A stretch of 64,000 bases of DNA from Acytostelium subglobosum LB1 (lineage: Eukaryota > Evosea > Eumycetozoa > Acytosteliales > Acytosteliaceae): positions 535,862 to 599,861 of the forward strand of contig NW_012236513.1 in the NCBI RefSeq assembly GCF_000787575.1. The letters are read 5' to 3'. The translations under genes and the position numbers were made by a program. Positions 3,750 to 34,403 of the stretch are shown here, in pieces; the first letter of the stretch is position 1; each line of letters starts with the position of its first letter. A model generated the notes under the pieces. It saw nothing but the letters and a program-made list of their open reading frames with translations, was not told the DNA's origin and searched no databases.

Positions 3750-5547
3750 CTAAATGAATACTTCAACTTGTCCAACTGTTTCAATGAATGGATAGAGGAA
3801 GATTCTTGTGAGGAAGTAAAAGATGATTCCAAATGCAATTGATATGGGCAGTGCAGGCAATGCCTTCTTGAATATCGCCAGCAAGATAAGTGTAGCAAAG
3901 AGTCCCTAAGAGTACATCAATCAAACATAACATGTTAGTTCTGGGTGTGATTGCCATGGTAGGCCTTGAAATAATAATATCAATAACTTACAGTAATAAT
4001 GGCAACAAAGCATGTGAATACTGTGCTGATATCGAACAGGGCAGCTCTGCCCATGAGTACACTGTAGAATACAAAGTCGCCAAGACCAAGCTTAAGACTT
4101 CTCTTTGGCTCCTCGACCATCTCCTCGACGACAACTTGATCACCCTCCTGTTGTTGAGCCTGTGGTTGTTGTTGATCCTCTTGTCCCTCACCAAGGTTGT
4201 CTCCTTGAGCTCGTGGTTGCTGTGGTGGCGGTGACTGTTGTTGCTGTTGCTGCTGTGGCTGATCATATGGACGACTTGGAGGCTCAAAGTTGGCGTTGTA
4301 AATCAATGCTGGAATGGTCTCATTCCTCTCCTGTGCAGTCTCAACCAACACTCTCAATGGACCCTTTGGACACAACACAGCAAACAGGTCTAGATGATAA
4401 TGGCCATGGTGTTAGTCAGTCATGTGATTGATGATTGTATTGAGACCAAACATACCATAAATAGAGATGACAGCCAAGATGGTCCAGGTAGTCCACTCTG
4501 GCATCCTGGTGAATGAGATGGCCATCAATGCAGAGATTACCACGAGATAGGTTTGATTGAGCAATGTTGGTGCGTACCAAAAGATTGATATAATGCCTCC
4601 AACACTAAAGTTAAACATTACAAATGCGAATGTGACCCAGTCTAGTGGCAGGTTATTGGCTTCAAGCATTGCCCTGTTGGATATAAGTGTAAGTATGATT
4701 GATTGCTTGATTGATTAAGACCTGATTGAAGTGAACACTTACAGGAAGATATAACCACCTGTTGCACCGAGGAGAATGCCAACTGAGAGGAATAACCATG
4801 TGTAGATAGCCTTTAGACAACGGTATTTGTATAATAGTACAAAGCATACTGTTGTCAATAGAATGATCACCAAGAATACCAATCCATTCAACAGTGACTG
4901 CCATATAAGTGTACCTGTTGAAGGCGATGAACCACCCTCTTCGCCACTATATATAATCACTCCAATGTTGCCTGCCGAGCTATATTACATAATGTGTTAG
5001 TCAATTGAATGATTGATTGAATGGACTATCGGGTGATTCGATTCACTCTTACCCTAGATAGCTGTTGTTGCTAGAGTTCAATGATCTGACTGCCCAGACG
5101 ACCAAGAACATTGTGATTGTTACAGGTTTCTGATTGAGTGAGCGGATGGATTAGTTGAGTTAGTCAATCACATGATTGATTGAATGATTGAATGAGACTT
5201 ACGAGAATGGCGAGGATCATGTTTGAGAAGTCCTCCAAGTCAGCTTCTTCGTCATCGTCATACTCTTGTTGTTGTTGCTGTTGTTGTTGTTGTGAACCAC
5301 CGATCAATGTAGTATTCTCTGATGGTTCATTTATACTATCTGATTTATGATCTACTAATGATATCTCTTCTCCATCTCCATCATCATCATTATCATTATT
5401 ATTCCTATTATTATTGCTACTACTACTACTGCTACCTGAAGCAGCAGTCGTCTGTCTCAACATATATGCAATGCCATCTTGATCTTGATCTTGATCTAAA
5501 TCATTCTCATCCTCTAATGAGAAGAATCCATCATTATTCTTTGACAT
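3750..5547 (-). CDS. psen: Presenilin, catalytic subunit of gamma-secretase
   Basis: Six exons rebuilt by hand: 5203-5547, 5053-5129, 4743-4979, 4456-4673, 3992-4389, 3750-3905, joining in frame to 476 residues. It is a multipass intramembrane aspartyl protease. The first catalytic Asp is in TM6, [16 protein letters not shown] (about D293); its codon is split by the fourth intron. The second is in TM7, [12 protein letters not shown] (about D397), with the GxGD signature. The PALP motif is near residues 442-445. The N-terminal 115 residues are acidic with Ser, Asn and Gln runs. The cytosolic loop between the two Asp residues is Gln/Pro-rich (about 335-375). All active-site elements are present, so an active enzyme is expected. 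Whether this is the psenA or psenB ortholog cannot be settled by eye. Confidence 0.93.
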
Positions 5548-19075: not shown

Positions 19076-22000
19076 TCAAACCGGAACATAGCTACAGATT
19101 TGTGTCATGATCTTTGTTGGGGCAGTGGTCAAGTTGATGTCGAAACAGTACTTTCCATTCTCATACTTCATATCTTTACCCAAAGGTCCATAATTGTAAC
19201 TGTTTGATTCATTAAATTGAATGATTAGTTTAGTTTTAAATGAATTGATTGATTGATTGATTGAATATCAATGATACATACTCCTTCAATGGACCAAACT
19301 CTCCACAGTACTTGCCCTCTGGAAGGTCTGGCATGCTGATGGCGTCATATTTCACACCATCATTGACTGGATTCTGCTCCTTGATCAAAGTGGCACCGGT
19401 CGAGTCAAAGAGCTTGAAGTAGTAGGCGTAGAGGTAGGCCTCACCGGTGTCGTCCTCTCCATTCTTGTTGGAGTCAGTCCATGCACCACCACGTAGTTTG
19501 AACTTGTTTGTCGTGAATCCAGCCTTGATCTGAATGACGTTGGAGTCTGTGGGCATGTCTTTATCATTCACATTGAAGCACTGCTGGTTCTTCTCCATCT
19601 TGTTGTCTGTGCCCAGGATGGTGTTGATGTAGGCGGGTGGTGTGTTCTTGTCGGTGATCTTGATGCAGTAGTCGCCACTGTCAATGATGGGGAAGTTGAT
19701 TGACTCGGCTCCCTTGGTCTGGTCCAACGCCATTGTGCCCACGACAGTGCCATCCTTCTTGGTCAAAGTGGCAGTGAGGCCATCCGATATATCATCATCT
19801 CCAGCTTCCTTGATTCCATTGGCATTGACATCATTCCAGGCGAATCCCTTGACCGACTTTGGACCTCTGACAACCGACATTGGTACACCGAGCTCGCCCT
19901 TGGCGTTGGCTGTTGTGGAGTCAAGAGTGACACACACCTCGCCATTCGAGTCGATCTTGCTGCTTACGCCCTGCTTGCCAAAGAGGTAGAGGCCCTTGGT
20001 GTCGGCTGCCTTGATGCAATATTCGCCCGGTGCCAGATTCTTAATGTCATATCCGTGGGTTTTGCCGGCAGCGTCGGTCAAGAATGTTCCAACCTCCTCC
20101 AACTTATCGCCATTCTTCTTGGAGACGGTACCCTTGATACCGCCGACGTATGGCTCGCCATATTGGTCCTCGCCATTGTCATTGAGGTCATTGTAGGCAT
20201 AACCAAACAAAGTGAACTTGTTCAACAAGAAGCCAGCGGATACCACGAGCTCGTTCTTGTCGTTGACAGTCGAGCCGTCCAAGGAGAAGCAGCGGATGCC
20301 AGAAGAGTTGAAGCCATTGCTGATGACGATATACTTTTGAGCTGGGTCCTCCATCTTGAGACAGTAGCCGCCCTGCTCCAGGTCGGGAATGCTGTATGCA
20401 TCGGCGAGCTTGGCGGCATCAGTAGTGAATGTGTTGACCTCGACTCCCTTGCCGTCTCTGTCCATCTTGTAGAGAGTGCCCTTGATGCCGCCCAAGAACT
20501 CCTCGTCCTTGTTGTCACCATCCTTGTTGGCATCAATCCAGGCGAATCCCTTGACTGTGTACTTGGGTGGGGCGGGCGCTTCGTTGAAGCCGGCTGGGAT
20601 CTCGACCCTGTTGTCGCTGTTGGCGGTGGAGCTGTCAACGGAGAAGCAGCGGATGCCTGATGAGTTGAACTTATTGGTGACACCCATTGGTCCGATGATG
20701 TACTTGTTCTGGGGGTCGGCAATCTTGATGCAATAGGCACCCTGGTCCAAGTTGTCAATTTTGAAGCCATCATACTTCAAAGAAGCATCGGTGGTGAAGG
20801 TGTTGAGCTCCTTCAGTGTGCCTTCCTTGTCCATGCTGTACAGAGCGCCCTTCATGCCGCCCAACCATGGCTCGCCACTGTTGTCCTGGCCATTCTTGTT
20901 GCTATCAATCCAAGAGTAACCAGCGATGGTGTACTTGGGTGGGGTGGGTGCTTGGTTGAAGCCAGCTGCCACCAAGAACTCATTCTTGGCGTTGACGGTG
21001 GAGCTGTCGACTGAGAAGCAGCGGATGCCAGAGGAGTTGAACTTGTTGGTGACGCCCATTGCTCCAATTATGTACATGGACTTGGGGTCCTCAATCTTGA
21101 CACAGTATTGGCCTTGATCAAGGTTCTCAAAGCGGAAGGCATTACTGTTCAAAGATGCGTCGGTTGTGAAGGTTTGGATCTCGGTGGTCTTGCCCTCCCT
21201 GTCCACACTCAGCAGACTGCCCTTCATGCCTCCCAAGTATGGCTCACCACTGTTGTCCTCACCATTGCCATTGGTATCAACCCATGCGTATCCGTTGATT
21301 GTGTACTTTGGTGGGACGACAGGTTGCTTGAAGCCACCTGGGACCAACACTTCATGCTTGTCATTGGCAGTCGAGTCATCGACAGAGAAGCAGCGGATGC
21401 CAGATGAGTTGAACTTGTTGGTGGGGCCCATTGGACCGATCTCATAGGTGTTGGTGGGGTCGGCCAGCTTGATGCAGTATGCGCCGCCGTCCAGGTTCTC
21501 AAAGCGGAAGCCATCATATTTCTTTGAAGAGTCGGTGGTGAACTCCTCAATCTGGGTCATATCATCTTTGTTCATGCGGTAGAGTGTGCCCTTTATGCCG
21601 CCTAACCATGGCTCGCCACTGTTGTCCTGGCCATTCAGGTTGGAGTCAATCCAAGTGTATCCGTGCAGGATGTACTTGGTTGGGGTGGGTGGTGCCTTAA
21701 AGCCAGCTGCCACCAAAAACTCATTCTTGGCGTTGACAGTGGAGCTGTCGACAGAGAAGCAGCGAATGCCAGATGAGTTGAACTTGTTGGTGACGCCAAA
21801 TGGTCCCATCTGGTACTTGCCAGTTGGGTCCTCAATCTTGACACAGTATTGACCTTGGTCGAGGTTCTCAATGCGGAAGCCATCATACTTCAACGATGCG
21901 TCGGTGGTGAAGGTTTGGATCTCGGTGGCCTTGCCCTCCCTGTCCACGCTCAACAGACTGCCCTTCATGCCTCCCAACCATGGCTCGCCACTGTTATCCT

Positions 22001-25000
22001 CGCCATTCAGGTTGCTATCGACCCATGAGTATCCGTGGATCGTGTACTTGGGTGCGGTTTGGCCCTCAGCGAGAACGAATCCAGCTGGGAGTAACACCTC
22101 ATGCTTGTCATTGTCAGTGGTATCATCGATTGCGAAGCAGCGCATGCCCGTCGAGTTGAACTTGTTGGTGACGCCCATTGGTCCGATCGTGTATGTGGCC
22201 GCGGGATCGGCAATCTTGACGCAGTATGCGCCCTCGTCCAAGCCCTCAATGCGGAAGCCATCATATTTCTTTGATCCGTCGGTTGTGAATGTGTTGAGCT
22301 CAGTGAGATCGTTGGTGTCCTTGTTCATGCGGTAGAGTGTGCCCTGCATGCCGCCCAACCATGGCTCGCCACTGTTGTCCTGGCCATTCTTGTTGGAATC
22401 AATCCATGCGTATCCATGCAGAGTGTACTTGATTACAGGGCTATTGTTGACTCTGACGAAGCCTCCTGGAATCTGGAAGTCGCCCTTGGAGTCGACGGTT
22501 GTAGAGTCGAGGGAGAAGCAGTACTTGCCATTGGCGTCCAACTTGTTGGACACGCCGATGGGGCCAACAGCTCTGACGCCACTGGGGTCAGACATCTTGA
22601 TGCAGTAGGCTCCCTGCGACAAGTCTGTCTGCTCAAAGGCTCTGCTACGCAAGGATGAGTCCGTGGTGAACTTGGCAATCTCCTGGAGCTCGTCTGCACC
22701 TCGGCCCTGGCGGTAGAGTGTGACATCAATTCCGCTCAAGTATGGCTCACCATAGTTATCCTCACCGTTCTTATTGGTGTCGTTCCAGGCGTAGCCGTGC
22801 AGTTTGAACAAGGGTGGATTGGCGGCTTGGAGGAATCCGGCTGGCACCAAGAACTCGTGCTTGCTGTTGGTAGTGGCCGCGTCCAATGAGAAACAGTACT
22901 TTCCAGTCTGTTGGTCCAATTTGCTGCTGACGCCTTTTGGACCGTTGGGGTAGTTCTTCTTGGGATCTGTGATGGTGATGCAGTAGCCGCCCTGTTCGAG
23001 GCCCTCCTTTCGGAAGCCATCCATTTTCTTTGACGAATCGGTAGTGAATGTTGCGACGGGTTTGTCATCGATGGTGGTCAGCACAACGTTCATTCCGCCC
23101 AAGTATGGTTCACCACCATTGTCCTCGCCGTTGGCATTGAGGTCGACCCAAGCGTAGCCATGGATGGTGAAGACGGGGGCGGGAGTGCCCACCTTCAAAG
23201 TCTTGCCAATTGGTACTAACAGCTTGCCGTTGGCATCGACGGTGGTGGCGTCTAGTGAGAAACAATAGCGATTGGAGGAGTCGAACTTGTTGGTAATGCC
23301 AATGGGGCCGGTGATGTATGTGCCGGTCGGGTCGGTGATCTTGAGGCAGTAGCCGTCGGGCGATAGTGCAGGGAATTCGAAGCCGTCGCTACGCTTTGAG
23401 GCATCGGTGGTGGCGGTTGAGACCACGTGGCCGATCGAGTTGGTCAACTCAACGTTCATGCCGCCCAAGTATGGCTCGCCACTGTTGTCCTCTCCGTTCA
23501 GGTTGGTGTCGATCCAAGAGTAGCCGTGGATGGTGAATGTCTTGGGCTTGGTGTCGTCCACAGGGACGAAGCCTCCTGGAAGGGTCAGTTGCTTATTACT
23601 GTTGGTGGTGGCATCGTTGAGGGTGAAGCATTGGTGACCATCGGCCTCAAACTTGGTTGATACTCCCATTGGTCCAATCTTGTAGTTGTTCTTGGGGTCC
23701 TTCAAAGTGACACAGTAATCATCCGCTGGCAACAGGGCCGACACAAAGGCCTTAGACTTCTTGGTGGCATCAGTTACAAATGACTCCAATGGTGCATTGG
23801 CCAACACAGCCCTAGACACTCTCTTGGACTTGATGGTCATGTATTCAGCCTTGTTATAGAGTGCACCTTCAATGCCTCCCAAATATGGCTCGCCATAATT
23901 ATCTTCACCATTCTATTAATGATTGATTGATTGGGTGAGTGAGTGAATGTGATTGTATGATGAGATTGATCACATTGATTGACTTACCTTGTTAGTATCA
24001 ATCCATGTATAGACTATGACTTGGTACAGTTGGTTTGGCGAAGTAGTTGTGGCTGTCGTCGTTGGAGCGGTAGTTGTGGCCGTTGTCGTTGGAGCGGTTG
24101 TGGCAGTTGTGGCGGTTGTTGTGGGCGCGGTGGTAGTTGCGGTGGTAGTTGGCTTCGATGTGGTGGTGGCCGTGGTCGTCACAGTTGTGGTCGCTGTGAT
24201 GGAGCTGGCTGGGGAGGTAGTTGAGGCCGTAGTGGTAGCAGTAGTGCTGACTGTAGTCGAGGCTCCGGCAACAGTGCTGGCAACAGTGGACTGAGTCGAG
24301 ACTGTGGTCGACGTTGGCACCGAGGTAGTGCTGGTCGTGGCAGTGGTAGTTGGCCTCGAGGTGGTCGTTGCCGTGGTCGTCGCTGTTGTTGTTGCAGTGA
24401 TGGTGCTAGCTGGCGAAGTGGTGGACGCTGTCGTGGTGACTGTGGTAGTGGCAGTGGTGCTGGCCGTGGCAGTGGTAGTTGGCCTGGAGGTGGTCGTGGC
24501 CGTGGTCGTCACTGTGGTGGTGGCCGTGATGGTGCTAACTGGCGAGGTAGTTGAGGCCGTAGTGGTAACAGTGGTACTGGCCGTAGTCGACGAGGCACCG
24601 GCTACAGTGCTGGCAACAGTGCTGGCTACAGTGGACTGAGTCGAGACGGTGGTCGTGACGGTAGTCGAGGCACCAGTGGTAACACCAGTGGTGGTGGCGA
24701 CAGTGCTGGCAACAGTACTGGCTACAGTGGACTGAGTCGAGACGGTGGTCGTGGCAACAGTCGATGAAACGGCAAATGTAGTCACAGTGGTACTGGCCAC
24801 AGTAGATTGAGTGGTAACAGTAGTGGATGCTGAGGTGCTAGTGGTCTGGCCTTGACAATAAGGATTGCCAAGAGCATCAATCAGGCAAGAACCCTGTTGG
24901 CACCTCTGATAAAATAAACATTTACTAAAGCATTTGGCTGGCAGATTAAGGCTGGGCTGGCAACAAACCGATCCCAAAGGACATTGAATGGAACATGAAT

Positions 25001-25192
25001 GTGATTGATGTTGTGCCCCTAATTAAATATTATATATATAATATTAAATTTATTATTAATATTATTATATTAAATTATTATCCATGATCATAATTAATAC
25101 TTACCAATTATGGAAATACAAAACATTAGGATGATGACCATTGCCATAAGGCCATGGCCTCTTCCAATGCTAGTGGCTGTGATTTTGAACAT
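19076..25192 (-). CDS. Colossin-like secreted protein with about 13 SdrD-B-type repeats
   Basis: Four exons: 25105-25192, 23988-25018, 19282-23912 and 19076-19199, in frame to 1,957 residues. The first exon supplies a hydrophobic signal peptide, MAMVIILMFCISIIG, cleaved before AQHQSHSCS. A Cys-rich segment follows, then about 270 residues of Thr/Ser/Ala repeats (TTVTTTA types), mucin-like and probably O-glycosylated. Then come about 13 tandem repeats of about 118 residues. Each opens with HGYxWIDxNxNGEDNSGEP, includes FTTDxSxKYDGF and QGxYCVKIxDP, and closes with CFSVDSSTVN. This is the SdrD B-like (Cna-B-type) repeat of dictyostelid colossins; the DxNxNGxxD pattern is a likely calcium site. 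The final repeats are more diverged. The protein is extracellular, probably a matrix or sheath component. Paralog identity (colA-D) cannot be decided. Neighbouring repeats are very similar at DNA level. Confidence 0.9.
19490..23950 (-). repeat. Tandem coding repeat array, unit about 355 bases
   Basis: The SdrD-B-like domains of the colossin-like gene form a DNA-level tandem array. Units between about 20,530 and 22,410 share long near-identical stretches, for example the GCAGCGGATGCC segment recurring about every 355 bases. Units at both ends are more diverged. This pattern suggests recent duplication or gene conversion in the centre of the array. It could also cause assembly collapse, so the copy number should be taken with care. 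Confidence 0.8.
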
Positions 25193-25626
25193 CACAAACA
25201 GGTTGTTGATTTTTTGAAAGGTGTTGTAGTTGTTGTTGTAGCTGGTTGAAGGGAGGTCTCTTGGACTTCCTTCCTGGGAATATTAAACAAAGAATAATAA
25301 AAATAATAATATATCTAACTTATCAAAGTTATATAAATCTTTGTAAATAACAAACAAACAAACAAAATAAACAAACAATAATACAATATGTTATGGTGGA
25401 GTCCACGCCACAGATGCAATTAAACAAACATTGTAATTGTAGAATGGGAGAGGGAGAGGGATGAGTGGGTGATTGATTGATCAATGACTGCGCCTTTTAC
25501 ATACTCTCTCCTCTTCCTCCATCTGAGTCATTCACCTGTTTCTGGGGTTGCCTAACCTTGCAACCCTACATACACCTTCTTCCATCATTATTGCTTGCAA
25601 TGTTGTTGTTGTTACTGTTTGTTGAT

Positions 25627-25655
25627 TGTGTGTGTATGTGTGTGTGTGTGTGTGT
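25627..25655. repeat. TG dinucleotide microsatellite
   Basis: About fourteen TG/GT units with one A interruption. Intergenic. Confidence 0.85.
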
Positions 25656-25761
25656 TTCTGTTAAGTTGATCAAGTATTGCCGTGGGTAGCCAGCTTCACC
25701 TGTTCGAGACCCTTGGCGTAGCAGTTAGTTAGTTATTATTTTGATTTTTGCGAATTAAGTG

Positions 25762-25815
25762 TGTGAGGGTATGTCTGTGAGGGTATGTCTGTGAGGGTAC
25801 GTCTGTGAGGGTATG
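25762..25815. repeat. 14-base minisatellite, about four copies
   Basis: Unit TGTGAGGGTATGTC at 25762, 25776, 25790 (one C for T) and 25804 (last copy truncated). It lies about 40 bases beyond the stop of the exonuclease-protease gene. Confidence 0.9.
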
Positions 25816-25857
25816 ATGTCTCTTATGTGTATCTATGATTGTTATTTATTGGTTATG

Positions 25858-28800
25858 TTATATTGTAATGTCATCACTCTGAGAAAGAGAGTTTAGATAG
25901 GACTTGCGTGCATCCTCTGGCCTAACACGTGGTAGTTTGAATGACCGAGGATCAAACTTCAATATGTTAACGAGGGACAGGGGCAACAGCGATTGGTGGT
26001 TGGACAAGATCCATTGTAGGTAGGACAGCACGAATACACCACAGTTGATAGTGTCCTCTGAGTGTTGATGACCAGTGTATATTGTGTTGCCGTGTGCACG
26101 CGAGATGTTATCAGTGCCAAATGTCAGATTGCTGATAATGAGGTTGCGGTACGTGTCGTCGATGTTTGCTGTTGTAGTGGGGCCATTCTTTTTATGCGCA
26201 AAGCTATCGACAATGAGTACTTCCACGTCCATCCTCTTGGGTGGAATTATGATCATGCAGAGGAGCCAGTGATAATTATTGTTGAGAGGAACAATGATTA
26301 CCTTTCCACGATGTGACGATATATCAAAACGCTNTACTGTCCAGTCTGGCTCACCAAAGAATAGGTGGTTTGGTTGACTCTGTAGACCGTCTTTCGTGAA
26401 CTGTTGGCAAAGAATCAAACTGATGATATGGGAGAAATGGGATGACTTGAGCCAACCAGCTTCGAGACGTTGGCGATAATCGGGATCGTCCAAGCCACAT
26501 GAAGTGAACTTGGATGATAGGCTAGGCATTGTTGAAGGTGTTCGTGAAGCCTTCGCGTCAGGGTTGGGACCAGCGTCGCCAGTGATCATTAAGTCGTCAG
26601 AGTCAATGGACAGTGGGGTGGGCAGAGGAATGGCAGAGGCGGTCTTGGCGGACTTTGAATCAACAACAGGCTTGCTCTTGCATGTTGTCTTGTTGTGGCC
26701 TGTTTGTTGGCAATTTCCACACCTGTTGGGCTTGCCTCTCTTGTTCTGTTTGTTGTCGTTCTTCTCGTTCTTCTCGTTCTTCTTGTTCTTCTTGTTCTTG
26801 CTGTGTTGTGGCTCTTCACCAAGCACAACGGACTCTTGTTGCTCGGGAATATCTTTGTGAAGGTCGTCCATCTCGTTTTGTTCCTCCTTTCCATTCAATG
26901 TCCTATTCCGCTGTGGTGCTGCCATCTTGGATCTGATATATAACAGGTGATCCCAAAACATCGTTGCAGGGATGTCCTCTGGGGCTAAGGGATGATCCTT
27001 CCAGAATGGATTCTGAGGGTCCAGGTACATCTCCTCGATCACTTTGATCAGTGTGATCACATCGGAAAGGGCTCGGTGTGGAAGTTGATTCACAATATCG
27101 TAGTGTTTGCTGAGGGTGCTCAACTGACGATTGGGCAATGCCAACCAGTTGGTATGATCGAGGGTTTCAATCATTCTGATATTGATTGGTATGGCAACAT
27201 TGTAATGTGCAGAGGCCTTGATCAGCATGTGCGAGTCATAACCCTTGATATTGTGACCAACCAAGTAGATGCGTTGATGAGGATGGCGTCTCAGAGCTTC
27301 CAACCAACAGAAGAAAACTGGACCAACTGTTTGCCAATCGTACTTGAGATTAATAACCTCTTTAGAAGGGACAGCGCAGTGATTGAATCTGTGGAGGACA
27401 CCTATTATAATATTAGAAGAATGTTAACAGGTTGTCCATTGTGTGATTGAATGATATGAAATGAATGAGTATGAATGAGTGACTGATTGGAGTAATTGAG
27501 TGATGATAGTGTGTGGGGTTGGACTTACCCTTTCCAGGGTGGATAAGAGTTGAGAATGATCGTGAGGATTGGAGACAAACAGCTGCAATCTCACAAATGC
27601 CAATGTTTGTCCCCTCAAGGTCAATATCTACAAAGATATCACCATCGATGTGAGATTCAGGTGATTCACCTTCAGGTTGGGACAGCTGGTATCGTTGAAG
27701 GATACTGAGCTCACCATCAACGATAGATGGGTCAGATGGTGCAGTGGCCGATTCTTGAAGCTGCACTTGATCGCTCTGGGTGACATGGAGCTCGGTGCAA
27801 AGGTCTTCATGGTCTATCTGGGAAGGGTCTTGAACTTTCACCTTTTCAAGCTGTGATCGTTCTTTGTAGGCACATGTGTCAATGAGTGTGTCTGCATCGG
27901 CGTAACTCCATGAATGACTCTCTACTAGATGCTTCTTGAATCTGTTGACATAGATGTATATCTTTGAACACGACTCATCAGGGCAAGGATGTCCTCGGGT
28001 CGTCTTGCTCTGAGTAGGGTCCAAGTTGCATGTTGATTGCCTGTAGGTGAGCCTCCTTCTCATACATGGATATGCCTTGGCAAACAACTTGAGGCTTGAG
28101 GTATCTAGCTTCTTGTTTGATGGACCTTGGGTTGATGGCTCTTGGACAGAGTGCTGGTCCTGTGTGGTTGTGGAAGCACTACCAGCGTTCCCTGTGTTCG
28201 GTTGAACAGCATTCTTGTTACCCGCGGGTGCCCCTACACCCTTGTCTCCAGTGTCGGCGGCGTTAGAGCGGCTGTCCAACTTGGATTGGTGACCTCTCGT
28301 GAACTTTGGAGTAAGCGCGGTGAGCAACGCTTGACAGAAGGACAGATCTTGATTTGAGTTGTAGTTGCGGGTCGTGTTGAAAACATTCTTATGTCCTTTG
28401 TATCTCGAGTCAACATTGTGCTTCTTGATGAGCTCCAATAATGCTGCCCTCTGATACTGATAGAACGACATGAAGTTGGGCTTGAAGACCTTCCTCCGCA
28501 CGGTACTGAAGTACCACTCGACGGCATTTGTGCCCAGATGACTGATCTTGGTGAGTGCTGGAGATTGTGGGAAATGTTTGTTGTGCCATGCTGCGAGATT
28601 GGTGAGACCATCTATAGTTGTCTGCAGGTGGTCCTTGAACGCTTGGGAAACATTCTCAATTGAATTGAAGTACCGCTTGATCTCCTCTAGCTTGGTAATG
28701 CGATCTCCAAGTGTGATCGCTTTACCATCAATGCCATTGTGCTTGTCAAAGATCTCGTAAAACTCTCTGACATGCACAAGGTACCGTGATAGTCTATGGA

Positions 28801-29463
28801 GATGAGCATGCGTCACATGTGTCAACTTGTATCGATGGTTTGTGAATGAGCTTAGCAATACAAATGATAACATAGCATTAATAATGAAGTGTAGATTGAA
28901 TCAAACGAATGATGACAATGTAAAGGTAGATTGTGATTAGCAACAACAACATGAGATGAAATGGAACATGATTAATATGTGACAATGTGAATAGTAAACA
29001 CGATGATAGTTACAGGTAGGTATTTGATGTTGTCTCTAATAACGAATGAATTGAGCCCAAAGCGTAATCGTAGTCTGTAGAAATTGCTTGGAGGTATAAC
29101 CAACTCTCCCTTGATATTCGTGGTCACCATCCCCTCAATCTTGTGTTTGATGCAGAGTTGATTGAGATCCTCTAACGACATCAAATGAGGGCTATTCTCG
29201 TCTAGCTCTAATTGGAGTTGAGACAAGAGGGGCTGATCGCACCAGAGTTAGAACATATATACGATATTATATTATCGCAACATGATACAAACCTCAAGAA
29301 ACATCCAGAGAGCATCATTGTATTCATTTCGCGTCTTGGTAGCTGCCAAGATGGTTTGAGTCTTGACGTCTCTAATGTTGATGTTACTAGTGAATGTATT
29401 CTTTGGTCGCTTTGTCTCATTCTCCTCTTGAGATGAGGAGGTCAATACACGCTTCTTCTCCAT
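25858..29463 (-). CDS. C2H2 finger - DEDDh exonuclease - CCHC knuckle - Ulp1-type protease fusion
   Basis: Four exons: 29293-29463, 29014-29232, 27529-28825 and 25858-27401. All junctions are in phase, giving 1,076 residues. Domains in order: an unassigned N-terminal region with AVEWYFSTVRRKVF and FYQYQRAALLELIKK; a C2H2 finger (about 411-434, C-x4-C-x12-H-x4-H); a DEDDh 3'-5' exonuclease with ExoI FVDIDLEGT (about 527-535), ExoII LVGHNIKGYDSHML (about 612-625) and ExoIII HRALSDV (about 670); a Lys/Asn-rich linker; a CCHC knuckle CGNCQQTGHNKTTC (about 785-798); and a Ulp1/C48 cysteine protease with NNNYHWLL (His about 940), VLIVDSF (Asp about 959), GHQ (Gln about 1008) and NCGVFV (Cys about 1015). 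All catalytic residues are visible. Such mixtures are typical of large mobile elements or domesticated copies. No inverted repeats or target duplications were found. One ambiguous base (26334) lies within a codon and does not break the frame. Confidence 0.82.
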
Positions 29464-30007
29464 TATATATAGTCATGTAATAATATAGTAATGTATGAAT
29501 GAACAACAAATAATATAATACTCAACACGCAATGATCACCATCAGAGGGTAGGTCAACCTAATAATAAATGATTTATGGGACTATAAAAATGAAATAATT
29601 CAAAGTTGCTAAATGCTATGCCTCATTGTATGGTGACAAGAGAAGCTTGCCATTGTGTTCAGGTGTTTTTTTGTGTGTGGACCACAAAGGATACCGATTT
29701 TTTCTGTTTTAAGGTTGATTGGTTTTGATGTGTGAATGAAAAAATCGCAGGTCAACCACCTCCTCATTGTATTGATCAATACAGACACCCCCTGGCCTCG
29801 CACCTCATCGATCATATTACCACACAATAGAAGATATAGATAGATAGTGATAGTGATAAAGATAGGGATAGTTAGATTAGATAGTTAATAGAAGTGAGTG
29901 TGTGGAGTGTTAAAAGTCAGACGAATAACACTCAAATATCTTGATAAAAGAAAGACTACAATGCTAGGTCTCTGAGACCAGCCCAGCCATCAACATACAC
30001 AGCTATT
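29464..30007. other. Divergent intergenic region
   Basis: Shared promoter region of the exonuclease-protease and RasGEF genes. It holds a perfect 14-base palindrome, GTATTGATCAATAC, near 29767-29780. No coding sequence accepted; the antisense frame at 29609-29827 looks random. Confidence 0.5.
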
Positions 30008-33000
30008 ATGTCTCATACCAACAGCAACAACAATAGTAATAATAGTAATAATAGTCGACCAATTGAGAAGGTGGCTACATTGGCAACCAACCCCGCCACT
30101 GCAACTTCAACTCAAGCATTAAGGTCAACATTCAGCAGCCATCATAATCATAATCACCATCATCATGTGGCAGACATGTCATCACCACCAAAGAAGTTAA
30201 CAACGACACAAGTAGTGCAACATGTTGAATCAGATAACACACCACCAACCGTTGTACAATCCGCCAAGTCAATGTTCAACATTGGTAGCAAGGCATCAAC
30301 ATCATCAACACAAAACATCGACCAAGACAACAACAGCAGCAGTACAAGTACAAGTAGTAGTGGCAACGATAGTAATAATAGACCAGGATCACCAAGTGTT
30401 AAACTTCTTGGAAAGGCATTCGATACAACGATCGATAAGCATCTCCATCAACAGTTCATCTTGACCAAGAACTCGTCGTCTCAATCACCGACCAAGCCAA
30501 ACTTTGTAATCAATCGTAACAGGAACACTTCAACCACAGTCTCTGTCGTTGGTAAGCCCCAGCTCTCGACATCCCCCAGCAGCAGCAATTCATGTGGAGA
30601 AGCACAGACATCCAACAAAGATGAGACCAAAGTGGAGTCTTCCCAATCCCCAACTGTAGCTCAACCCCAGCCTCAGCCCCAGCCCCAGCCCCAGCCCCAG
30701 CCCCAGACTCAACCTCAAACACAGACTTCATTACCAACTCCTACATCTCTGCCACTGGGACTTGGACAACAAGTTGGTTCACCAGAGAAGAAACAGCAGG
30801 TATCGATTCATGATCAAGTTCGTTTCGTACCTTATGTTGAGGAGCAGGAACAACAGCAACCTGTACAATCTGAGGTGGAAACAACAACGACAACAAAGAC
30901 GACAGAGCCAGAGCCAATTCAATCTACTACACCACCATCTACCAGCTCTGGAAGCATACACAACATACCCACTGCTATCAAGAAGCGCTCATGGATGCAG
31001 TCGTCCCCACCAACGACTCCACCACATTCTCCATCATCATCTCCTCCTCCAAGTAGACTCAGTGGACAATTCCGTCATACACATGTCGCTACCACACCCA
31101 TTGCCACTGCCACAACGACAACGACAACTCCATCATCGACGATGACAGATCATCTGACAAGGGTCAACCCGGTTACCACTCCACTGTCACTGCCAACTCA
31201 ATCATCTCCCTTGGCAAAGTACGACTCGTTATCATCATTGTCATCGACCCCTTCGACTCCTTCGACACCTCTGTCACCCACGCAACAAGCAACATCTCCG
31301 CGAGCTGACGACTCCCCTCGTCGCAACTACCAATCACACCGCGTTGCAGGCGATTGGAAGAAGGACATGTTTACCAAAGGTGTCACCAGCAACCTTGTAT
31401 CCAAGGAAAGACGAGCCTTGATTGGATCACGTGACTCATCTCCATCATCCCCATCATCAAGTTCAGTGCCCAGCCTCGATGTAAGCTAACTAATTGATTG
31501 ATCGATTGAATGATTGACTAACACAATCACAACCATCCAGATGTCTACCTCACCACCAACATCATCTATGTTGTCGAGTGCCGTTCAAATGCGCGATGAC
31601 CATTCAACAACATCGACAACATCATCGACAGGTTCAGGTGCAGGATCAGGATCAGGTGTGTTGGACGACCCGGATATCAACGGACTGGTCAGCAAGTTCC
31701 AGAAGAGGAATGGTGGAGGCAGTAAGCTGAAACTGTCCACGCAAGACGTAGAGTGGATCACAACAAAGTTCTACGAGGACAGCAACAAGGAAGCTTCCAT
31801 CACTATCAGCCCAACACGTGCGACACAACAATCAGATGTTGCTGTTGTTGGAGGTGGTGCCAATGTTAACTCATCTGCAGTTGGTGGCGGCGACAAGAGC
31901 AAGCAACTTCAACAACAACCACAGCAGCAACAACACCAACAACAGCAAGGACAGCAATTGACCACAAGTGTTGGTACACACCTCTGCAACAGTCCATTGA
32001 AGACTAGCTCAATCAAGAAGTATAGGGCACAAGGCAACTCGAACAACAGCAACAGCAAGGGCAACTCAATAGGTTCGTCCAAGCCCTCAACGGCCGATTC
32101 GAGCGATGACGAAGATGAGGTGTGCAACCCCAACAACTACCCAAGCTACAGGTATCTGGAGGAGGTGGGCAAGCGACGACACATCCCCGCCGAGTGCAGT
32201 CGCCGACCAGGCCTCAAGTCGCCGCTGTTCCTCAGCATCCCCTCGTTGGCGCAGCCGACACAATTCCACACGCACTCTCCCGAGAAGCTCGGCTCCAACA
32301 TCTCCACATCGGTCGAGGAGAACAGTCATCAAGATCAATCATTGCTCTTCAACAATCAGATCCTCAACAGGGTGGCTCACGACAAGGACCTCACGCTGCT
32401 GTTCTTCCCCGTGCTCAAGAGCTCGACGAGGATCGTGGCGCAGCCAAGCGGGCTCTCGAGTCAGCCCAGCAACAAGAGCAACGGTGTTGCTGTGCCCAAC
32501 AATGGCACCAACAACAAGGCCATCAACACTTCGGCCACCAAGCCCATTTCATCATCGGCCAAGTCAGACTCTGGTGAGAGCTCAGCATCATCGCATCACT
32601 CTTTCATGTCCATGTCATTGTCCCCGGGAACACCCTCTCCACCCCAGTCATTCTCGCCTCTCTCAGAGTCAATCAACTTTGTAACGGCATCAGTGTCACG
32701 AGCGAATGAGCAGCGTAGGTCTTACTGGCCACATCGATCAACGACGAGCAGCAACGACAGCAAGTCACCTTCGCCCAGCTCGCCATCGGCCACGCCACCA
32801 GGCCTTGCTGACTCACCACCTTCAATGTCACTGGATAATCATCATCACTCCCCATCATCGGCGCAAGCATCGCCACAGACACCCTCACCAGTGTCCAGCG
32901 CTGGTGCGAACGATCAGCCCAAGCCAATATCTCCACCGGCGGCCGTCACCCCGCCGCACCCCTTCGAGGAGGAGTTCAAGGGAAGAACCGACATCTACTT

Positions 33001-34403
33001 TACGACGCACGAGGCGTCGCACAAGAAGTTCGCCAAGATCAAGTGTGGCTCATTGGACGCGCTGGTCGAGATCCTGACCTACCACAACGTACAGGTGCCC
33101 AACTTTGTCGAGACATTCCTGCTCACTCACAAGACATTCACAACATCAGAGATACTGCTGCAAAAGTTGATCGACAAGTACAATGAGGAGCCAGTGCACG
33201 ACGAGGAGGACGAGAACAACATGAGCAGTGAGCAGATGGAGAAGCTGTCGCAGATGTCACGTTCCATCAAGCTGAGGGTGTGCAGCATCCTAAAGATCTG
33301 GATCGATAAGCACTTCTATGACTTTGAGCGCAATCCAGAATTGTTCCAACAGTTTCAAGAGTTCATCGAAGGCACACTCTGCGAGGATGGCATGGAGAAG
33401 ATATCACAAAACATTCAAAAGACCATAAAGTCAAAGGTATGTCATCGTTGCGTTGGCAACTTGAAGTTGGAGTTGTGGCGACACTAACTAACTCAATCAA
33501 TCACTGGAACTTTCCCATTCAACAGCAGAGCAATGACAACATGGACAAGAGCATAAAGACAAACAAACAACCTATACCAATTGTACCAACACTCAAACAA
33601 GATCAAATGAGTAAGTCGATGGATGATGGATGGACTTGCACTGGCAAGGGCACACACTTACTGACTGACTGGCCCTCATCAACTACTTAGTCACACTATT
33701 CAGTATGGATGATCTGGAGATTGCCAGACAACTGACATTGATTGAACATGAAGCATACTCATTGATCAAGCCGAATGAATGTATTAATTTAGCATTCAGT
33801 AAGGCTGGCAAAGAGGAGAATGCTCCAAACATCACAAACATTATCAAGCGATCCAATACGATTCCCTTGTGGGTGGCCACCGAGGTGGTCCAAGAGGAGA
33901 GGATCGCCCGCCGCGCCAACATCATCAAGAAGTTCATCAACGTGGCCGAGCACTGCAAGAACATGAACAACTTCAACGGCGTCATGGAGATCCTGTCCGG
34001 CCTGAACCTGACGCCCGTGCATCGCCTGAAGCGCACATGGGAGACGATCCCCAGGAAGTACCTGGCCATGTTCCGCCACCTCAACTCATTGATGGCCTCC
34101 AAGCACAACTACAAGGTGTACCGAGACATCCTGCATACAAAGAGTCCGCCCATCCTGCCATTCCTCGGTGTCTACCTCACTGACCTTACCTTTTTGGAGG
34201 AGGGCTCGCCCGAGACCCTGGAGGGTGGCCTGATCAACATGGTCAAGCGATACCAACTGTCGGCCATCATACAAGAGATACAACAATTCCAACAGATGTC
34301 CTATCCCTTTGTTGTTGTGCCCATCATTCGAGAATTCCTTCTCCAGTCCAATGGTCTACAATGGAGTGGTCTATTGAAACATTCAAGGATATTGGAGCCC
34401 TAA
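30008..34403 (+). CDS. Ras guanine nucleotide exchange factor (REM + CDC25 domains)
   Basis: Four exons: 30008-31480, 31541-33436, 33526-33610 and 33691-34403, encoding 1,388 residues. The first 970 residues are low complexity: Ser, Thr, Pro and Gln runs, with a PQ repeat near 219-240. The RasGEF N-terminal (REM) domain spans about 975-1125 (YFTTHEASHKKFAKIKCGSL, VPNFVETFLLTHKTF, LRVCSILKIWIDKHF). The CDC25 catalytic domain spans about 1155-1388 (FSMDDLEIARQLTLIEHEAY, IKKFINVAEHCKNMNNFNG, PPILPFLGVYLTDLTFLEEG). The protein loads GTP onto Ras proteins at the membrane; dictyostelids have many such genes controlling chemotaxis and development. No other signalling domain is visible in the long N-terminus. 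The specific gef ortholog cannot be named. Confidence 0.92.

Follow-up and report, generated by a model that had tools for sequence, protein, structure and literature searches.

The gene at 25858-29463 of the window (by which we mean the whole analysed stretch of 64,000 nt, C37:535862-599861, on contig NW_012236513.1 of Acytostelium subglobosum LB1) fills a repeat of about 4 kb, which very probably is a DNA transposon, young, present in few copies and bounded by 17-bp terminal inverted repeats. We read it, from sequence, as a DNA transposon because the repeat is multi-copy, has terminal inverted repeats and is flanked at one copy by an 8-bp duplication. The preliminary description had seen in the predicted protein a novel machine for nucleic-acid trimming and SUMO cleavage. 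That claim is not borne out, since the gene belongs to a multi-copy element bounded by terminal inverted repeats and each of its two enzyme types has already been published in DNA transposons. The parts of the element in the window are the following.

25681..29647, minus strand (coding): putative DNA transposon copy with an intact left terminal repeat and six remaining bases of the right one
25681..25697, plus strand: left terminal inverted repeat CGTGGGTAGCCAGCTTC, 17 bp, exact
25762..25815, plus strand: tandem repeat in subterminal position, 3.9 copies of a 14-bp unit (score 101 in Tandem Repeats Finder), shared by L022 and L023
29642..29647, minus strand: right terminal repeat remnant, GAAGCT on the plus strand; L021, L022 and L046 continue the repeat where the window diverges

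When the genome (30.7 Mb, 56 contigs) was searched with 985 of the 1,076 residues, ten matches came up. Nine lie on C37 (the window), C55, C35 and C43 at 89-100% identity, the tenth on C32 at 27%. The C32 match was rejected as a copy of the element, as it resembles a bacterial exonuclease. At locus L029 (C32:53000-62900) an uninterrupted DnaQ-type exonuclease frame lies amid bacterial-looking frames, and the C32 contig may be bacterial DNA within the assembly. When 14 fetched loci (numbered L0xx) were aligned to the window, four shared the repeat in blocks of at least 144 bases and at 96.4-99.7% identity: L021 (C55), L022 (C43), L023 (C35) and L046 (C44). This count leaves out short alignments (30-35 bases) that fell on simple or tandem repeats, four of them in L025 and three in L046.

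The borders of the copies are sharp. The right side was reached by three of the four aligned copies, all ending at 29647, and on the left side the alignments begin at 25669, 25676 and 25681, the last being where the terminal repeat begins. With up to two mismatches CGTGGGTAGCCAGCTTC was found at 13 places in the genome, as compared to one for the pattern read backwards. Seven of these places, the window included, were exact (C16, C35, C37, C43, C44 and C55 twice), one had a single mismatch (C43), and the five with two mismatches were set aside before copies were counted. Both ends are assembled in only two copies, L021, where the repeat is exact at both ends and inverted, and L022, where both ends are inverted and one carries one mismatch. 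L022 is flanked on both sides by the 8-bp duplication GTATTTCC, which would instead be 6 bp (TATTTC) if the repeat began one base earlier; the base before CGTGGG varies among copies. The rearranged copy L021 is without a duplication, having TTAA before and TTAT after. No terminal repeat pair was returned by an inverted-repeat search of window 23000-33000, because the right repeat of this copy is lost.

The 14-bp units of the subterminal tandem repeat might, as a guess, be transposase binding sites. Over the whole window the unit pattern with three mismatches is not above chance (6 seen vs. 3.14 expected, with 10 of 100 shuffles reaching 6). A sixth locus, L045 (C16), has no more than a stub of the right end of the element, some 30 bases at 4234-4263, which is perhaps the remnant of an internally deleted copy.

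The flanks of the inspected copies are unrelated by eye. Around the window copy, an adjoining colossin-like frame on the minus strand (19236-23912) has eleven SdrD B-like stretches, and a RasGEF frame lies at 33669-34403. The colossin family is a listed expansion in A. subglobosum according to the genome paper, which also gives an A+T content of 55.0% and a gene number of 12,722, with a density of 410 per Mb (PMC4334915); the G+C of the window is about 45%.

Within the element, the reading frame (29463-25858, minus strand) consists of four exons encoding 1,076 aa, one of them an X owing to an ambiguous base; a single ambiguous base lies near 26335, inside the protease region. The frame was recovered as in the preliminary description, which had proposed four in-phase exons for one protein; its three introns measure 60, 188 and 127 nt and each runs from GT to AG. 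The gene is laid out as follows.

29293..29463, minus strand: exon 1, aa 1-57, of doubtful standing in the protein; L021 lacks the start region and has a stop at codon 48
29014..29232, minus strand: exon 2, aa 58-130, likewise of doubtful standing
28811..28812, no strand: suspected internal deletion junction, where L021 continues with 1,265 bases and then a 100-N gap
27529..28825, minus strand: exon 3, helix-rich region, C2H2 pattern and first part of the exonuclease
27402..27528, minus strand: intron 3, splits the exonuclease
25861..27401, minus strand: exon 4, rest of the exonuclease, CCHC knuckle and Ulp1-type protease
25858..25860, minus strand: stop codon, ends the exon 4 frame

Exon 4 is a single open frame in which D618, H671 and D676 of the exonuclease are followed by the CCHC pattern and the entire protease, and the joining of the two enzymes is therefore independent of splicing. 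The first two exonuclease residues, D532 and E534, are joined to the rest only via removal of intron 3. In the L021 block over this intron (window 26361-28635) the only indels are three bases lost and one gained, all of them intronic, and there is some support in the sequence for intron 3 being real. Exons 1 and 2 are doubtful as part of the protein, because L021 has lost the start region and has the stop at codon 48, and because the end of intron 2 lies 13 bases from the suspected deletion junction.

The following patterns and domains were assigned in the protein, the last acidic residue being a candidate discussed below.

28517..28519, minus strand: Glu233 in LGTNAVEWYFSTVRR, candidate for the final acidic position of a DDE transposase
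27914..27985, minus strand: C2H2 finger pattern, aa 411-434, by spacing only
26989..27643, minus strand: DEDDh exonuclease region in exons 3 and 4, Pfam RNase_T, with D532, E534, D618, H671 and D676
26680..26721, minus strand: CCHC zinc-knuckle pattern, aa 790-803, by spacing only
25861..26517, minus strand: Ulp1/C48-type protease region, Pfam Peptidase_C48, with H940, D961 and C1016, and Gln1008 at Cys-8

Pfam scans were made with the whole 1,076-aa protein and with eight separate pieces (six from the window, two from the L021 insert), which exclude the inter-domain linkers. As a separate piece the exonuclease matched RNase_T just above the cut-off (24.9 bits vs. 24), and in the whole protein below it (20.9 bits). 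All five DEDDh active-site residues are present, with HRALSDV carrying the His typical of DEDDh, so that the complete exonuclease of the preliminary description was borne out. Peptidase_C48 likewise matched the separate C-terminal piece just above its cut-off (23.6 bits vs. 20.7) and is absent from the whole-protein listing, E up to 5. Both catalytic domains thus pass a profile search as separate pieces and neither does so in the whole protein. Of the protease claimed earlier, with His, Asp, Gln and Cys in place, the His-Asp-Cys triad is present, but the Gln stands at Cys-8 rather than Cys-6, where the window protease has a Ser. Among the frames that had a Gln within the nine residues before the Cys, to which this comparison was confined, the Gln was at Cys-6 in four host-type Ulp1 genes of the genome and at Cys-7 in a viral-type protease (L006). 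The C2H2 finger and the CCHC knuckle that had been described are present as spacing patterns and had no Pfam match in the separate pieces; the former also arises in 88 of 20,000 shuffles of the protein and the latter in 5 of 20,000. Structure prediction, which had been proposed as a check, was run from single sequence for two regions and gave unusable models, with a mean pLDDT of 33.1 for the protease region and, for aa 131-292, an all-helical fold of low confidence at 51.1.

Searches of PDB sequences (E up to 10) gave a single match for the protease, ubiquitin-like-specific protease 2 at E 0.084, and two matches, named 'exodeoxyribonuclease III' (E 0.07) and 'DnaQ' (E 0.11) for the exonuclease. 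Profile searches of the genome gave 14 matches for PF02902 and 8 for PF00929, none inside the window; the window exonuclease is split by an intron. The PF02902 matches fall at ten places, by eye five viral-type proteases and four host Ulp1 genes, with the tenth place on C49, and the search with the window protein listed none of the other Ulp1-type places. The viral-type C48 proteases (SHWV...YYDSFGDDPS) at L024, L025, L026, L028 and L031 (C25, C46, C21, C53 and C45) are alike, and a second common frame (GYAGSAANLAKWRE) lies near the protease in the first three; we take these five loci to resemble integrated Polinton-like or virophage-like elements. Viral contigs scanned with the protease, the exonuclease and aa 131-289 gave no confirmed relative. 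When genome contigs were scanned with the exonuclease, a single stretch out of 19 was confirmed. It lies in Paenibacillus, matches at 32% over query residues 73-150, and is taken here for an ordinary exonuclease.

No transposase Pfam family was found in the whole protein or the eight pieces, the latter being also without an integrase or Mutator transposase match, and a genome search with aa 131-289 (E up to 10) returned no divergent relative. Around Glu233, LGTNAVEWYFSTVRR may resemble a P-element-like DDE transposase at its last acidic residue, a reading that had no profile match in Pfam. A C/DxxH motif at residue 84 was dismissed as chance, since 10,414 of 20,000 shuffles contain one. As compared to the P, hAT and MuDR superfamilies, the 8-bp duplication of L022 fits the size of about 8 bp, and the number of domain matches was zero. 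As these scans found no DDE core, what we say of superfamily and mechanism is inferred.

The copy L021 may explain why no core was found. Between the positions that correspond to window 28635 and 28812 it continues for 1,265 bases that look like part of a gene, and then comes a gap of 100 N, in which the DDE core could lie. The window copy would then be without an internal piece carrying the transposase core, and presumably no longer moves by itself. Capture of a host gene was rejected as the origin of the L021 insert, as a genome search returned the insert alone besides 77 short simple-repeat matches, and a search with the longest coding piece of the insert (E up to 10) returned nothing but that piece.

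That same lack of further copies of the insert, simple repeats aside, can be turned around. The window protein would in that case be the complete second gene of a DNA transposon, the 1,265 bases of L021 would be unrelated DNA or misassembled, and the gene for the transposase would lie outside the assembly. The insert does adjoin the 100-N gap, with single ambiguous bases nearby, and the window frame crosses the suspected junction without a stop. The insert nevertheless reads, by eye, as spliceable exons in the orientation of the element, and window 28636-28811 would fall within the L021 gap; we regard a second gene as somewhat unlikely. An internal deletion in the window copy remains our preferred reading.

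L021 has an inverted end piece, is without its start region, has the stop at codon 48 and, being alignable only from 26361 on, lacks the protease triad. In L023 the protease has lost 2 nt, and L022, L023 and L046 run into N, so that no complete copy is assembled. In the main block, window and L021 differ by 4 synonymous and 12 non-synonymous codon changes, 7 of the latter in one odd contiguous patch, and the second block has a single change, to a stop. In the patch (L021, about 5521-5542) seven codons (SHLGTNA) are replaced by a Phe-rich stretch, which is either a sequencing error or a real change. As compared to the window, L022 has one and L023 two non-synonymous changes, both with no synonymous ones, and L046 has none in codons. 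These changes are what would be expected of young copies without selection, with no sign in the sequence of selection on the protein.

One could still argue for domestication of the window copy, as a transposon gene that was fixed after loss of one terminal repeat and whose protein serves the host. Its right terminal repeat is mostly gone and it alone has a frame that is fully assembled and open, in line with such a fate, L021 being without the triad and L023 with its 2-nt deletion. However, recency alone could explain an open frame in a copy that is 96.4-99.7% identical to the others, and synonymous changes are not in excess, which makes domestication improbable. An ordinary host gene spread by recent segmental duplications without transposition would fit the small number of copies, several of them partial, but is highly improbable given the sharp common borders at inverted repeats, the differing flanks and the one 8-bp duplication.

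For the DNA transposon that we favour, the most likely mode of movement is cut-and-paste with 8-bp target-site duplications by a DDE-type transposase, the DDE core being hypothetical. Towards its C-terminus the element protein would carry, in this order, a C2H2 finger, a DEDDh exonuclease, a CCHC knuckle and a Ulp1-type protease, which bears out the domain order of the preliminary description. We tentatively suggest that the exonuclease trims 3' ends exposed in excision or gap repair. The protease might, on a similarly tentative view, strip SUMO or a related tag off either the transposase or host repair factors, or else cut the long polypeptide itself. That DDE core, DEDDh exonuclease and Ulp1-type protease form one transposase polypeptide, and so define a new lineage, perhaps a superfamily, of eukaryotic DNA transposons, is an idea we consider unlikely as it stands; if true, end processing and control of SUMO-type tags would be built into one transposition protein.

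The preliminary description had stated that such nucleases and proteases recur in large DNA transposons, and the literature bears this out, as each type is published there (PMC9587614, PMC3706591, PMC2836005, PMC3212892). The DEDDh (DnaQ) exonuclease of KolobokD is proposed to digest DNA intermediates starting at the 3' end, and KolobokD, of a DDE lineage, pairs a DNA transposon with a DEDDh exonuclease as this element does (PMC9587614). Kolobok has TTAA duplications and 5'-RR...YY-3' ends (PMC9587614), whereas this element has 5'-CG...CG-3' ends and, in L022, the 8-bp duplication given above, though L021 does have TTAA in front of it; the words 'Ulp1' and 'protease' are absent from the main text on KolobokD (PMC9587614). 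Some Dada elements (Laccaria, Ectocarpus) have a DnaQ-like exonuclease inside the transposase and a C-terminal CCHC knuckle, so that exonuclease and knuckle are common to them and this element (PMC3706591). In contrast, the Dada exonuclease is DEDDy, as compared to DEDDh here, and Dada lacks the terminal inverted repeats seen here and makes 6-7 bp duplications in small-RNA genes; 'protease' is absent from the main text (PMC3706591).

On the side of the protease, Ginger1 has a Ulp1 domain C-terminal in the transposase polypeptide, the same position as here (PMC2836005). It differs by its 4-bp CCGG/CCGT duplications, integrase-like core and TGTNR ends, this element having an 8-bp duplication and no integrase match, and the main text is without the word 'exonuclease' (PMC2836005). 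Some Mutator elements also carry Ulp1, with no exonuclease named for them there (PMC2836005). CryptonF and CryptonS provide a further case of a C48 peptidase in a eukaryotic DNA transposon (PMC3212892). Cryptons are described as tyrosine recombinase elements, unlike the DDE type proposed here. To our knowledge they are also without terminal inverted repeats of this kind.

Searches of one open-access library showed no DNA transposon with both an exonuclease and Ulp1. DNA transposons bearing either one are separately published, and the new part is the joining of both enzymes in one element; a polypeptide with both would be a first as far as that library was searched. The genome paper lists one DNA transposon for A. 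subglobosum, and the family would extend the known mobile content of this species if it is not the one listed (PMC4334915). With both enzymes in one polypeptide, it would be a compact system for asking why transposons recruit them.
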